This document shows, piece after piece, positions 2,449-34,955 of a stretch of 64,000 nucleotides of DNA. Made by a program: the position numbers and the translations under genes. This stretch comes from Bacteroidota bacterium. GTDB lineage: Bacteria > Bacteroidota > Ignavibacteria > UBA10030. Location of the stretch: positions 1 through 64,000 of the forward strand of contig JALONQ010000009.1 of the NCBI GenBank assembly GCA_025454835.1, written 5' to 3'. Every line of letters begins with the position of its first letter. The stretch's first letter is position 1. The notes beneath the pieces were generated by a model. The model was not told where the DNA came from. It ran no database searches and saw only the letters and a program-made list of their open reading frames with translations.

Positions 2449-4800
2449 AGACCTTCCAAGGTGTTCGTCGAACAACCTAAGAATTCTCCGATATTCATCC
2501 ATCCAACTAGTGGGCTCCGCGAACCCGTGATCTTCGACGGGGTACGACGCCAGCTCCCAGTTATCCTTCCGTAATTCGATCAGCCGCTGCGCGAGGCGCA
2601 CCGCGTCCTGATAGTGCACATTCACGTCGAGCATGCCGTGACAGATGAGCAACGCCCCTTGCAGTCCTTCCGCGTGATAGATGGGGGATGAACGGCGGTA
2701 CGCTGCCGAATCCTCCTGCGGGATATTGAGGATGTCCGACGTGTATCCGTGGTTGTAATGGGCCCAGTCGGTGACCGGTCGCAGCGCCGCCCCCGCCGCA
2801 AAGATCCCCGGCGTGGTGAACATCCCCATCAGCGTGATGAACCCGCCGTACGACCCCCCGTAAATGCCGATCCGCTTCGCGTCGATGCCGTGCTGTTCAA
2901 CGAGCCATCGCGCGCCGTCCACGTTGTCCTCCAGGTCCTTCCCCCCCATGTGCCGGTAGATGGCCGTCCGCCAATCCCGCCCCAGGCCGGCACTGGCACG
3001 ATAGTCCATATCGATGACGGTGTAGCCCTTGTCGGCCAACAGGTTGTGGAACATGTACTCGCGGAAGTAACTGCTCCATCCCTTGTGAGCGTTCTGCAGA
3101 TAGCCGGCGCCATGAACGAAGATCACGGCGGCGCCGTTCGGTCTCTCGGGCTCGTAGAGCCGCACCGGAACGTGCGCGCCGTCGCGAGCTTTGAAGGTCG
3201 TCACCATGGGCGAGCGCCAGTCATACGCCCGGAACTCCGCTGACGGCGAATCAGTGATGCGCGTCGCTTTCGCTCCTGGAGCGTTATCCATCACATACAG
3301 GTCCGGCGGACGATTGCTGAACTCGTGGAGGAACGCGATCCGCTTCTCGTCGGGAGAGAGAACGGCCTCGTTCTGGCCCTCCATGAACGTGATCTTCGTC
3401 CTCGTCCCGCCGCCAAGCGGCATCGTGTAGAAATGCCGTTCCCCGAAATGTTCCTCGTTCGAGGTGAAGTACCATCGTTTCCTGTCTCGCGACAGCCGCA
3501 GATCATACACCTCAAACCTCCCACCGGTCACCTGAACCTTGTTCCTCCCGTCGAGTCCCACCGTATACAGGTGGCTCCATCCGTCCGCTTCCGACTGAAA
3601 CCACACTCCTTTGCGGTCCGGCAGAAATCCCACCGTCTCTCCGAAAGCTCCTATCCCAGGCCCACCGATCCATGCCGTATCGCGCTGATGGTCGAGTACC
3701 GTCGAAATAGTCGCTCGCTCGATATCGAGAAGGACGATCCACCGGTCCTTGTTGTCCTGCGAGAAGACCTGGGTCAGCGCCTGACGCCCGTCGTCGGACC
3801 AGACGACGCCGGAGTAGAAGGCGGAACGCGCCACGGCCTTCTTTCCCTTCGACGTGTCGGCGGGCGGCTTCAGGATGCCGGGCAGCGAGTCGGGCCGCAC
3901 GGCGATGAGCGTGTCGCGGGCGAGGTCGAGCACGAAGAGTTCGAACGTCGATGGTGCATCTCCCACCTTCGTGCGCGTCGGGATCTCTTCGGTGTAGCCT
4001 GATTCGGTGACGTAGTTCGGGATGTTGGCCGTCTTCGTGCCTGAGGGGCGTTCCGTAACGAGGAACGTGACGTAGCGACCGTCTGGAGACAGCCCGAGCT
4101 GCGAGGCGGTCCGCTGGCCGAGGTAGTGTGGCTTCGGATTATTCTCGGCCAACGCATCGCGCAATGCCTTGGCGGACTCCCGATCGTTGCGGCGCTTCTG
4201 CAGAACGGCCGAGAGCCGCAGAGCCTCGCGTTCGAGCATCGCTTGTTGTACGCTCTTTGGCGTTTCCTTCGGGGCCACGCCCGTTCGCAGATCGGTCAGC
4301 TGGGTCTCGAGTCCGGATGTGAGTTTCCGGTGAAACAGGTTCCCGTTGCGGACGAACGTGATAGCGTCGCCTTCGGGCGCGAATCGGGGATCGGATTCGA
4401 TGTCAACAGTCCGGGTCAACGGTTGCGACGAACTTGTGCGAATGTCGTAGAGAAAGATGTCGCCGTTCTTCTGGTAGACCTTGCGCTGACGGTCGATCGT
4501 CCAATGCCCGCCGTGCGACGGCATGGAACGGCATTCGTCCAGTGAGACACGAACGGGAGTGCCGCCGCCCGTTGGAACCTTGTAGAGTGAATCGCCCTTG
4601 TCCTCTCCGCGGCGCCAAGTGAAGTAGATCCAGCGGCTGTCCTCTGACCAGAGGATCTGCTTCGGCGACGTGCCCATCCACACTGGGTCGCGCATGACAG
4701 TGTCGACCGTCAGCCAGCCGCGGGAGGGCTGGGCTCCCAGAAGGACGGGACACAGAAGGCACAGCAGGAGATCAAGACAGGAGAAAGCATTTGTGCGCAT
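2437..4800 (-). CDS. Secreted S9 family peptidase (prolyl oligopeptidase/DPP-like)
   Basis: A 787-residue serine peptidase with an N-terminal signal peptide ending near LLGAQP, a long beta-propeller (WD40-like/PD40) domain, and a C-terminal alpha/beta-hydrolase. The catalytic triad is readable: Ser650 in GGSYGG, Asp725 in GMLDVN and His758 in EDHGF. Family members cleave peptides or acyl-peptides in the periplasm or outside the cell. It stands alone, convergent with htpX and divergent from the GNAT gene. No strong Shine-Dalgarno is present, which is common in Bacteroidota. The exact peptide specificity cannot be told from sequence. Confidence 0.93.
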   Translation of the reverse strand: MRTNAFSCLDLLLCLLCPVLLGAQPSRGWLTVDTVMRDPVWMGTSPKQILWSEDSRWIYFTWRRGEDKGDSLYKVPTGGGTPVRVSLDECRSMPSHGGHWTIDRQRKVYQKNGDIFLYDIRTSSSQPLTRTVDIESDPRFAPEGDAITFVRNGNLFHRKLTSGLETQLTDLRTGVAPKETPKSVQQAMLEREALRLSAVLQKRRNDRESAKALRDALAENNPKPHYLGQRTASQLGLSPDGRYVTFLVTERPSGTKTANIPNYVTESGYTEEIPTRTKVGDAPSTFELFVLDLARDTLIAVRPDSLPGILKPPADTSKGKKAVARSAFYSGVVWSDDGRQALTQVFSQDNKDRWIVLLDIERATISTVLDHQRDTAWIGGPGIGAFGETVGFLPDRKGVWFQSEADGWSHLYTVGLDGRNKVQVTGGRFEVYDLRLSRDRKRWYFTSNEEHFGERHFYTMPLGGGTRTKITFMEGQNEAVLSPDEKRIAFLHEFSNRPPDLYVMDNAPGAKATRITDSPSAEFRAYDWRSPMVTTFKARDGAHVPVRLYEPERPNGAAVIFVHGAGYLQNAHKGWSSYFREYMFHNLLADKGYTVIDMDYRASAGLGRDWRTAIYRHMGGKDLEDNVDGARWLVEQHGIDAKRIGIYGGSYGGFITLMGMFTTPGIFAAGAALRPVTDWAHYNHGYTSDILNIPQEDSAAYRRSSPIYHAEGLQGALLICHGMLDVNVHYQDAVRLAQRLIELRKDNWELASYPVEDHGFAEPTSWMDEYRRILRLFDEHLGRSEGR

Positions 4801-4924
4801 GGAGGTTCCGAATGAAAAACTTTCAATGAAGGTACGCCCAGGTAATTCAAGAATCTAAAGAGAATCATCAATATCTTATTTATGAGAATCACCCAACCTG
4901 CCAAAAGATGCGAAGGATTTCTGA

Positions 4925-5752
4925 GTGAACATCACCACCCTGTGCGAGATCTGTGAGCGTGCTGATGCGGAAGCATGGGCGGAAATGTTGAATGCTGTGC
5001 CGGACGATCAGGGTCGGCAATTCGACGTGCATCTGAAGCGCTACGGTCATGCTGTGGTGGGAGTGGTCGGCGCATTCGACGTGCTGGCCATGAACCGGGT
5101 TGTGGGCGTGACGTCGCACGAGGGCATCGCGTCAAAGGACCTCGACGAGATCGTCGAGATGTACCAGACGGCCCACAGCCGCCGCTTCGCCGTGCAGGTC
5201 TGTCCGACGGCGCAATCTCCGCAGTTTGTCCAGAACCTGAAGGACCGCGAGTTCGTCCTGTTCAATCATTGGTCCAAGTTGCATCGTCCTGCCCATCGCG
5301 AGATCCCGCATCCGGAGCGTCCGCTGCAGGTGGAGCGCATCGGCCCCGACCGCGCAGATGAGTTTGCCGCCATCTGCGTTCCGGCGTTCGCCTGGCCCAC
5401 GCCGTTGAAGCGCTGGGTTGCCGCCCTCGTCGGACGCCCGGGGTGGCACCACTATCTGGCGTACGAAGATGGTCTCGCCGTCGCCACCGGCGCGCTGCAT
5501 GTCAAGGACGGCATTGGATGGATGGGGTTTGCCGCCACCGATCCCGGCCACCGGAAACATGGCGCCCAGACCTCGCTCATTGCGAAACGCCTGCATGATG
5601 CGATCGACCTTGGTTGTAAGCAGATCGTCGTCGAAACGGCGCAGGACCGGCCCGAACAGCCCAACCCGTCGACGCACAATCTCCTTCGGTTCGGCTTCGA
5701 GGTCGCGTACGAGCGGCCCAACTACGTGTGGGTTCGCATGGACAAGGACTGA
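4925..5752 (+). CDS. GNAT-family acetyltransferase
   Basis: A 275-residue protein whose C-terminal half has the GNAT acetyl-CoA fold. A strand ending in GWMGFAATDP leads into the cofactor loop GHRKHGA near residue 208, then the helix SLIAKRLHDA and the strand KQIVVETAQD. The N-terminal half is less conserved and could be a diverged second GNAT domain or a substrate module. The GTG start at 4925 follows AAGGA. It is divergent from the S9 peptidase; the 124-bp AT-richer gap between them must hold both promoters, but I see no clear one. The acceptor substrate is unknown. Confidence 0.8.
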   Translation: MNITTLCEICERADAEAWAEMLNAVPDDQGRQFDVHLKRYGHAVVGVVGAFDVLAMNRVVGVTSHEGIASKDLDEIVEMYQTAHSRRFAVQVCPTAQSPQFVQNLKDREFVLFNHWSKLHRPAHREIPHPERPLQVERIGPDRADEFAAICVPAFAWPTPLKRWVAALVGRPGWHHYLAYEDGLAVATGALHVKDGIGWMGFAATDPGHRKHGAQTSLIAKRLHDAIDLGCKQIVVETAQDRPEQPNPSTHNLLRFGFEVAYERPNYVWVRMDKD

Positions 5753-25384: not shown

Positions 25385-25424
25385 GAGTGGCTACATTCGC
25401 CGATGACGTTACTCGAGCTTCCGA

Positions 25425-25494
25425 AATCGTCAATCGTCAATCGTCAATCGTCAATCGACAATCGACAATCGTCAATCGTCAATCGTCAATCCTC
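25425..25494. repeat. Heptamer array (AATCGTC, 10 units)
   Basis: Ten consecutive 7-nt units: seven AATCGTC, two AATCGAC and one AATCCTC. It is the longest clean array in the window. It ends 7 nt before the ATG of the VOC dioxygenase gene and replaces a ribosome-binding site. A related theme (CGTCAAT, CGACAAT) forms the array at 29882-29916. Confidence 0.95.
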
Positions 25495-25501
25495 TATCCC
25501 C

Positions 25502-28945: not shown

Positions 28946-29881
28946 CTATTCCTTCGAATCCTTGAGGGCCCGGTGTGTTCTGTCATGCCCGTCTTGCGGT
29001 TCCAGGTGGGTCGTGATGGTCGTCTGCACCGGAAACGCGGCCTTGATCACGGCCTCAACCTCGGTGGCCTGCCAATGGGCTTCGTCAATGTTGGTCGTGT
29101 TGGGGAACAGAAGGTGGAAGTCGACCCAAAGCGACGCTCCGCTGTTCCGATGACGAAGTTCGTGATAGGCAAGCCCTCGCGCCTTCGTCTCCTTGTCGAG
29201 AAGGGCCACGAGAGCGGCACGGATCGACTCATCCCCCTCGTCCATCAATCCACCCACCGACTGGCGGATAAGCTTTCCACCGGACCACAGGATGTTGATG
29301 GCCACCAGAATGGCGAGGATGGGGTCGAACGGGAGCCAGTCCGTGACCATGACCAGGACAAGCCCGACAATGACGCCGAGGCTCGTCCACGAATCGGTCA
29401 GCACATGCTTCCCGTTGGCGACAAGGATGAGCGAATTGTGCCGCTTCCCCTGCCAGACGAGATAGGCGCCAAGCCCCGCGTTGATGATCGCCGCTCCGGC
29501 GACGAAGTACGTGCCGACGTCCAGATTCTCGATCTGCAGTCCGGCGATCCACTTCTTGATAGATTCGTAGATGATGAAGAACGCGGCGAACACGATCATC
29601 GCCCCCTCGAAGCCGGCGCTGAAGAACGAGATCTTGTCGTGCCCGTAGGGGTGGGAGGGGTCGGCGGGCTTGAAGCTCAACCAGAGGCTGAATGAAGCAA
29701 AGGCGACGGCGAGAACGTGAACGACCGACTCAGCTGCATCGGACAGGATCGCCGCCGAGCCGGTGATGAGGTACGCATACATCTTTCCGGCCAGCATCAG
29801 GAAACCGACGCTGAGCGAAAGCGTCATGGCGAGCTTCTGTTGCTGCACGGCGATGGTGTTCGTGGGAAGAGGCGCATCCAT
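28946..29881 (-). CDS. Cation diffusion facilitator (CDF) metal transporter
   Basis: A 311-residue protein with six membrane helices (about residues 15-210) and a cytoplasmic C-terminal domain. Metal-site features are SDAAESVVH near residue 42 and the HPYGHDKISFFS loop near residue 77, typical of Zn/Fe/Co/Cd efflux CDF proteins. The C-terminal domain (WVDFHLLFPN...IDEAHWQATEVE) is the usual dimerising ferredoxin-like module. It is separated from the upstream acyltransferase gene by 43 bp made of heptamers that run to the ATG. Confidence 0.9.
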   Translation of the reverse strand: MDAPLPTNTIAVQQQKLAMTLSLSVGFLMLAGKMYAYLITGSAAILSDAAESVVHVLAVAFASFSLWLSFKPADPSHPYGHDKISFFSAGFEGAMIVFAAFFIIYESIKKWIAGLQIENLDVGTYFVAGAAIINAGLGAYLVWQGKRHNSLILVANGKHVLTDSWTSLGVIVGLVLVMVTDWLPFDPILAILVAINILWSGGKLIRQSVGGLMDEGDESIRAALVALLDKETKARGLAYHELRHRNSGASLWVDFHLLFPNTTNIDEAHWQATEVEAVIKAAFPVQTTITTHLEPQDGHDRTHRALKDSKE

Positions 29882-29923
29882 AGAGAATCGTCAATGGTCA
29901 CTCGAAAATCGACAATACCCGCC
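29882..29923. repeat. Heptamer array filling the whole gap between two minus-strand genes
   Basis: Units AGAGAAT, CGTCAAT, GGTCACT, CGAAAAT, CGACAAT and ACCCGCC occupy the 43-bp space between the stop of the acyltransferase gene (29925) and the start of the CDF gene (29881). The array touches the start codon directly. Confidence 0.6.
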
Positions 29924-33960: not shown

Positions 33961-33988
33961 CAAACCGCCCGCGCTGACCTGCGGGCGG
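33961..33988 (-). terminator. Hairpin after the His-heptad lipoprotein gene
   Basis: A perfect 8-bp stem CCGCCCGC/GCGGGCGG (33965-33972, 33981-33988) is followed on the minus strand by TTTG. It is a weak terminator candidate about 60 nt downstream of the lipoprotein stop. Confidence 0.45.
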
Positions 33989-34045
33989 CCGAAGGCCGAA
34001 CGTCGTGTCCAGCGCGTTGTCAGGCCGTACGGCAGCCGATTGCGG

Positions 34046-34537
34046 CTACTTGGCCTTCGCCTTCTTGTGCTCCGCCATGATTCGGGCGTGCTCCTCACTC
34101 ATCACCTTGTGGTCGGTTTCCAACTGCTGATGCTCCTTGAGCATCGCCTCGTGATCCGCTTTCATCCGCTCGTGGTCGGCGCGGATCTGATCGGCGGACG
34201 CCGTGCCGTCATCGTGCTTCTTCTCGAGCTCCGCGTGGGCGGCTACGAGGTCGGCGTGCTTCTTCACCAGCGCCTGGTGGGCCGTGGTGATCTGCTCATG
34301 CTTCTGCACCACCTCGGCGTGACCGGGCAACGCTTTGCGGAGCAGCACGTCGTGTTCGGCTTTCAAGCGGGCGTGCTCGGCCTGCATGGCGTCGTGCGCC
34401 TTCTGGAGCGTCTCGTGCTCTGCCGTCATGCGGGCGTGCTCGGCGTCGAGCTGGGCGTCGAGCTCCTTGCGGCCATCGGAGCAGGCGAGGCACATGCTCG
34501 TGAGCAGCACCAGGGCGATCAGGTGAAGGGTCTTCAT
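34046..34537 (-). CDS. Probable lipoprotein forming a histidine-heptad coiled coil
   Basis: A 163-residue protein with an export signal (MKTLHLIALVLLTSMCLAC) whose Cys19 is a plausible but imperfect lipobox cysteine. The mature part is a continuous helix of heptads HxxPhi in which the first core position is histidine: H34, 41, 48, 55 and 62, then after a 4-residue stutter H73, 80, 87, 94, 101 and 108, then H122, 129, 136, 143, 150 and 157. The residue three after nearly every His is L, M, I or V. Seventeen histidines in the a-layer would destabilise the coil on protonation or bind metal ions, so a periplasmic pH or metal sensor or sink is possible. GGAGG precedes the ATG. No known family recognised. 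Confidence 0.8.
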   Translation of the reverse strand: MKTLHLIALVLLTSMCLACSDGRKELDAQLDAEHARMTAEHETLQKAHDAMQAEHARLKAEHDVLLRKALPGHAEVVQKHEQITTAHQALVKKHADLVAAHAELEKKHDDGTASADQIRADHERMKADHEAMLKEHQQLETDHKVMSEEHARIMAEHKKAKAK

Positions 34538-34955
34538 GGGGTCCTCCGTCAGTGTATAGGGAATCAACAACAGCGGATGAGGTAATCCTATCGTCGTTGT
34601 GGAGGTGCGGCGAGGTTCTGTGCGCTCTCCGGGCCTAACAGGGGGTTGGGCGGAACGGACCGGCGAATGTTGCCCCCGGGGCTGACGGCACTCGAGGAAG
34701 CACAACGCCCTCTGCGTCACGTGAGACAGATCAGCGTACGCGCAATTTTCTGCGATGTCAACGGAGGAACGCTGCGTTCAGCAACATGTTCCCAAGAACG
34801 GGAAGAGCGAAGAAGCTGTGGTGGGAATTGTCTTGAAGAGGCCGATAAGATCTGACTCAACGCAAGGACATTGCGGTCGTTGCTCTCGCCGCGCCTGCCC
34901 GCCGCTCCCGAGACCTTCAGCGGTCAGGCGGGCGCGAAACGATCATCGTCTGGCG
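34538..34955. other. 418-bp region without a convincing gene
   Basis: It contains the lipoprotein leader and, near 34890-34935, a GC-rich imperfect inverted repeat (GCCTGCCCGCCGCT ... AGCGGTCAGGCGGGC) reminiscent of the one at 14207-14245. Short open frames here lack protein-like composition. No RNA gene recognised. Confidence 0.5.

Follow-up and report, generated by a model that had tools for sequence, protein, structure and literature searches.

A heptad-spaced histidine protein of Bacteroidota is predicted to form a three-helix bundle and may handle zinc

Histidine zippers, described by Hartmann & Lupas, are coiled coils in which histidines interdigitate between the antiparallel helices of a hairpin, known examples being PDB 5LOS from Serendipita indica and CASP14 T1083, T1084, and T1087 (PMC8616854). 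Several crystal structures are available; metal scavenging has been proposed, with the function left speculative (PMC8616854). Histidine zippers are the closest known kind for P0002, a protein encoded in the window studied here, by which we mean the whole stretch of 64,000 nt that was analysed (positions 1-64,000 of contig JALONQ010000009.1, assembly GCA_025454835.1, Bacteroidota bacterium, UBA10030). An earlier note on this DNA called a coiled-coil core layered with histidine very unusual; unusual it is, but the histidine zippers are a precedent (PMC8616854). Like them, P0002 has histidines repeated regularly along its helices, as judged from their spacing and from the family columns, and antiparallel helices predicted within one chain, as judged from AlphaFold2 models and from the co-loss of histidines in helices 2 and 3. 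Unlike histidine zippers, which are helical hairpins and often antiparallel homodimers, P0002 is predicted to place three helices in one chain, most members of its family are probable lipoproteins, and some have zinc-uptake neighbours. The comparison is one of description, not of sequence: neither 5LOS nor a relative of it was recognised among PDB sequence matches up to E=10 or among the 50 fold matches listed, and a made-up His/Ala probe run against the PDB did not retrieve 5LOS.

The P0002 gene, for which the earlier note gave no strand, lies on the minus strand from 34537 to 34046 (Table 1). Its product contains 18 histidines, H5 in the signal peptide and 17 in the mature part, where heptad spacing groups them into three runs (H34-62, H73-108, and H122-157). 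A spacing of exactly 7 occurs at 14 of the 16 gaps between them; composition-preserving shuffles, 100,000 in all, gave on average 0.9 such gaps and at most 8. The residue at +3 of the histidine is Leu, Met, Ile, or Val in 15 of 17 cases, the exceptions being G111 and A160. Both the heptad spacing of the 17 histidines and the occupancy of the second core position had been claimed from the sequence alone and are borne out; the single stutter claimed with them is instead two breaks, one of 11 residues and one of 14 that stays in phase, each at a predicted loop, which argues for three helices and not for one coiled coil with one stutter. The claim that the protein is a lipoprotein stands as probable only, its own lipobox being weak. 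The lipobox pattern is matched by 18 of the 25 family members (the window protein and 24 homologues), and P0002, an exported protein, is probably lipid-anchored.

Table 1. Features of the P0002 locus, in window coordinates.
Feature	Position	Strand	Details or basis
CDS, His-heptad exported protein, probable lipoprotein (P0002), 163 aa	34046..34537	-	ATG at 34537, stop 34046-34048
Signal peptide, residues 1-18	34484..34537	-	sequence
Candidate lipidated Cys19, weak lipobox CLAC (C16-L17-A18-C19)	34481-34483	-	sequence
Predicted helix 1 of mature part, residues about 24-64, His 34, 41, 48, 55, 62	34346..34468	-	AlphaFold2 model; His spacing
Predicted helix 2, residues 73-110, His 73, 80, 87, 94, 101, 108	34208..34321	-	AlphaFold2 model; His columns; hydrophobic moment
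Predicted helix 3, residues 115-162, His 122, 129, 136, 143, 150, 157	34052..34195	-	AlphaFold2 model; His columns; His co-loss
Ribosome-binding site GGAGG	34543..34547	-	GGAGGACCCC block before ATG identical in both G440 copies
3' flank, about 75 bp, conserved with both G440 copies	33970..34045	-	alignment judged by eye

Comparison of the gene with a 77%-identical homologue from G440, a Gemmatimonadota-labelled MAG, gives a dN/dS of about 0.4, indicative of purifying selection. All 17 histidines are kept between the two proteins, against 27 changes at the 127 other mature positions (Fisher P = 0.04). A recent expansion of a DNA tandem repeat was rejected as the origin of the heptads, the gene having one 12-bp, 2.3-copy array. 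Since the DNA is not a tandem repeat and dN/dS is low with every one of these histidines retained, the pattern is maintained at the level of the protein. Neither a sigma-70 promoter nor a terminator was detected at the gene, and an integron-type attC site considered for the 3' flank was dropped because, by eye, the GTTRRRY core is absent where it is needed. Elsewhere in the window, the predicted frames at 25403-25500 and 29840-29890 run through NRQSSI / NRQWSLENRQ repeats and are probably intergenic DNA repeat, not protein.

AlphaFold2, run on the family alignment, predicts helices at residues 2-64, 73-110, and 115-162 of the window protein (mean pLDDT 91.5, pTM 0.78) and at 26-64, 70-109, and 114-157 of a second homologue (pLDDT 82.6, pTM 0.70). 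Both models superpose at about 2 A on designed single-chain antiparallel three-helix coiled coils; helical bundles commonly give fold-match Z values near 10-13, and the superposition therefore shows only the arrangement. The hydrophobic moment, computed without the histidines, points 3-69 degrees from the histidine position in the helices of the window protein and 6-41 degrees from it for the family, so the histidines would face the core. Position e of helix 2 is also hydrophobic, and helix 2 is therefore probably the central one. Independently of the models, the co-loss of histidines between helices 2 and 3 is highest, out of all 720 one-to-one column pairings, for the antiparallel pairing i+j=230 (73:157, 80:150, 87:143, 94:136, 101:129, and 108:122; mean phi 0.54), which, the 25 sequences being related, is support and not proof. 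The P0002 unit is predicted to be a single-chain antiparallel three-helix bundle, neither a dimer nor a trimer. The earlier proposal of a coiled coil with histidine at a core-facing heptad position is thus upheld by the predicted helices and the moments, but not as a dimer or trimer. Given a single-chain bundle, any effect of metal or pH would be on the folding of that chain or on binding within it, and not necessarily on dimer or trimer assembly.

Judged by sequence searches, the P0002 family is undescribed, patchy, and mainly found in Bacteroidota. Every score of the window protein against Pfam and NCBIfam falls under the curated cut-offs, in agreement with the earlier statement that no family is recognised, and other family members give just scattered matches to coiled-coil and unrelated models. 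A single-sequence search with the window protein retrieved no relatives from 60 related genomes; searches with it did find homologues in G440 (two copies, 77-78%), in two Bacteroidetes MAGs, and on a Persicobacter plasmid, and the wider family was reached through a profile built from these first homologues. Within the phylum, the profile has matches in 21 of 395 genomes, of which at least two owe theirs to repeats or stop-rich frames. It has none in the 31 other members of the taxonomic family to which the window genome belongs, and it matches one of 298 Gemmatimonadota genomes, with further members in two orders. Searches of viral contigs found no relative, and searches of plasmids found only that of Persicobacter. 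The profile matches in G167, G213, and G751 are not homologues, their loci reading as CACTCATCAC-type DNA repeats or stop-rich frames; a fourth, in G174, consists of seven overlapping weak matches and was rejected by analogy. A bare CAY-heptad DNA pattern was unusable across relatives, chance matches being too numerous.

The window protein was aligned with 24 homologues from 23 genomes or records. The histidine-rich members share the architecture run-loop-run-14-run, and about 94% of family histidines occupy the same columns, 315 of 329 lying in a reference histidine column or exactly one heptad ahead of one. The profile search for relatives suggested in the earlier note thus finds the histidines conserved in heptad phase and not scattered. 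H55, H80, H87, H94, and H143 are present in 92-96% of the family, and the outer layers (H34, H108, H122, H129, and H157) are variable, in part through their loss from a divergent subfamily. In the divergent f40 subfamily, Tyr, Phe, or Leu takes the place of some core histidines. Gene order is kept around the members of a divergent subfamily with fewer histidines (L058, L059, L063, L065, and L067): a Bmp/PnrA-type lipoprotein, the histidine protein, a coiled-coil protein, and an NAD-dependent epimerase, with a NADH dehydrogenase chain 6 gene upstream in four of the five.

Window positions 33970-34547, comprising the gene, the GGAGGACCCC leader, and the 3' flank, are conserved with positions 515-1095 and 4440-5020 of the G440 locus (L002). 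Synonymous divergence (dS) is 0.27-0.30 between the window gene and the G440 copies and 0.17 between the two copies themselves. Vertical origin across two phyla was rejected: dS is too low for it and G440 is the only carrier among the Gemmatimonadota, a combination that points to transfer or to a misbinned contig. The conservation suggests that the gene and its flanks were recently transferred and duplicated as a unit, if the contig is not misbinned. In the window the gene is solitary, lying between genes for a type IX-secreted FG-GAP protein and a CitMHS-type transporter, with a CDF transporter gene 4 kb away; its own neighbours give no pointer to metal.

A TonB receptor gene is clustered with the P0002 homologue in G441 (L003), G442 (L004), G842 (L084), and G318 (L085). 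The four receptors are 32-84% identical to one another. Against the ZnuD zinc-piracy model they reach E values of 1e-33 to 1e-40 but score far under its cut-off; no NCBIfam cut-off is reached by the receptors of the homologue loci. A second lipoprotein, C6, is common to all four clusters and matches none of the family models scanned. Upstream of the receptor lies a gene for a small exported histidine-rich protein with a CxxCD-type motif (L003:540-857, L004:4248-4598, L084:5422-5742, and L085:10317-10742), and those of L004, L084, and L085 have no match among the family models used. On another contig of the window genome, a ZnuD-like TonB receptor homologous to those of the relatives' loci is likewise followed by C6 (G000:C1:128148-131381 = L097:7149-10382), which is 40% identical to the C6 of G318; the genome has no ZigA match.

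Other metal-related genes lie near some homologues. In G318, about 45 bp separate the homologue gene from a COG0523/CobW GTPase gene upstream of it, and the homologue gene of G811 follows two such GTPases, one of which scores over the ZigA zinc-metallochaperone cut-off (636.6 vs 600). A DmeF-like CDF cation-efflux gene follows in G441. The neighbour in G440 is a receptor C-terminal remnant only, and in Persicobacter it is a chromate transporter. About four receptor adjacencies in 20 loci have a chance probability of roughly 1e-6 to 1e-4, with the adjacencies treated as independent and relatedness partly removed. Zinc-type neighbours are found in only about 6 of the 23 homologue genomes or records, and many other homologue loci have housekeeping neighbours (dnaJ/grpE, nuoJ, and DNA polymerase delta).

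Because some distant homologues lie in neighbourhoods with ZnuD-like TonB receptors and ZigA/COG0523 proteins, P0002 is best read as a sponge or hand-over protein for a zinc-type metal. We propose, with a probability of about 0.6, that P0002 is an exported, probably lipid-anchored three-helix bundle with several bound divalent ions, zinc foremost, that works beside ZnuD-like TonB import by buffering metal or passing it on. With histidine at heptad position a and Leu, Met, Ile, or Val at position d of each helix, the core would hold several stacked histidine clusters. We infer that these clusters bind several divalent ions, with zinc as the likeliest, the identity of the metal, the binding itself, and the stoichiometry all being part of the proposal. 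The bundle, lipid-anchored in most members, would then buffer metal or hand it on at the outer membrane or in the periplasm, acting alongside the ZnuD-like import. A functional parallel is offered by ZepA of Anabaena, a Zur-regulated exported zinc-binding exoprotein whose gene in some genomes neighbours those of COG0523 chaperones and zinc transporters (PMC10957091). Relatives of P0002 are likewise exported and, in some genomes, encoded near COG0523 genes. ZepA differs in having two domains, one part of which is beta-sandwich-like, with one H-X2-9-H-F/Y-H site and no coiled coil.

It is unlikely that P0002 is instead a soft-metal sponge resembling SilE or PcoE, whose HxxM repeats would bind Cu+/Ag+ through His and Met, fold on binding, and so protect the envelope. 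There is a local likeness in motifs: the repeated HxxM(xxxH) motif of the P0002 family is that of SilE motif 2 (PMC5008109), the 7-11-7 histidine spacing of SilE recurs at the junction of helices 1 and 2, and Met stands at +3 of 119 of 325 family histidines, against a background of 6.6%. Members are exported like SilE and PcoE, carry HxxM/HxxMxxxHxxM motifs, and are of about 160-180 aa to their 143-144. SilE can, in addition, bind as many as five Zn2+ (PMC5008109). Metal-free SilE, however, is disordered, and its motifs are short and separate, whereas the P0002 family has continuous heptads and is confidently predicted by AlphaFold2 to be a folded bundle without metal. The +3 residue in the window protein is more often Leu than Met (7 vs 5), homology is not detectable (hhalign probability 3% to SilE and 2% to PcoE), and no sil, pco, or cop genes occur among the scanned neighbours.

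A coiled coil switched by pH, in which the histidine layers hold the bundle or an oligomer together at neutral pH and open on acidification with metal being incidental, we consider improbable. Designed bundles and filaments do switch sharply with pH when they contain buried histidine networks (PMC11286511), and the histidines of P0002 are predicted to face the core. The fold is, however, predicted as a monomeric bundle, and conservation peaks in a subset of histidines towards one end of it, as in a binding site. The gene context of the homologues, with its metal-uptake neighbours, favours the handling of a divalent metal, zinc, over a pH switch.

More doubtful still is a structural or periplasmic-chaperone lipoprotein in which histidine merely fills a polar core position. 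Such a role would suit the variable, often housekeeping gene neighbourhoods and the loss of core histidines in the f40 subfamily; it sits poorly with the near-invariance of the five best-conserved histidines and with the recurring association with metal-import genes. Least probable of all is a heme-binding bundle whose histidine pairs on antiparallel helices ligate heme from a TonB heme receptor, for although ZnuD-like receptors overlap heme-receptor profiles (that of L003 scores 137.6 to TonB-hemin vs 114.2 to ZnuD) and weak matches by sequence and by fold include designed heme maquettes, the maquette matches are within noise for helical bundles, the histidine count is far above the need of bis-His heme sites, and neighbours of the ZigA/COG0523 and CDF types indicate divalent ions.

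Histidine layers have been built into the three-helix core of designed His3 zinc proteins, namely alpha3DH3 and the TRI peptides. These and the buried-histidine pH-responsive bundles (PMC11286511) contain one to three histidine layers; P0002 is natural and has up to 17 histidines. To the histidine-lined coiled-coil cores already described, the P0002 family adds a larger, three-helix version with conserved histidine columns, and it would be a natural counterpart of the designed His3 zinc bundles. Because some members are encoded next to ZnuD-like receptors and ZigA chaperones, the metal hypothesis can be tested directly. More tentatively, and at somewhat short of even odds, we suggest that this three-helix histidine-zipper family, on the surface or in the periplasm, serves as the multi-site zinc-storage and hand-over partner of ZnuD-like TonB import in Bacteroidota; if so, histidine-zipper coiled coils would gain a bacterial function.
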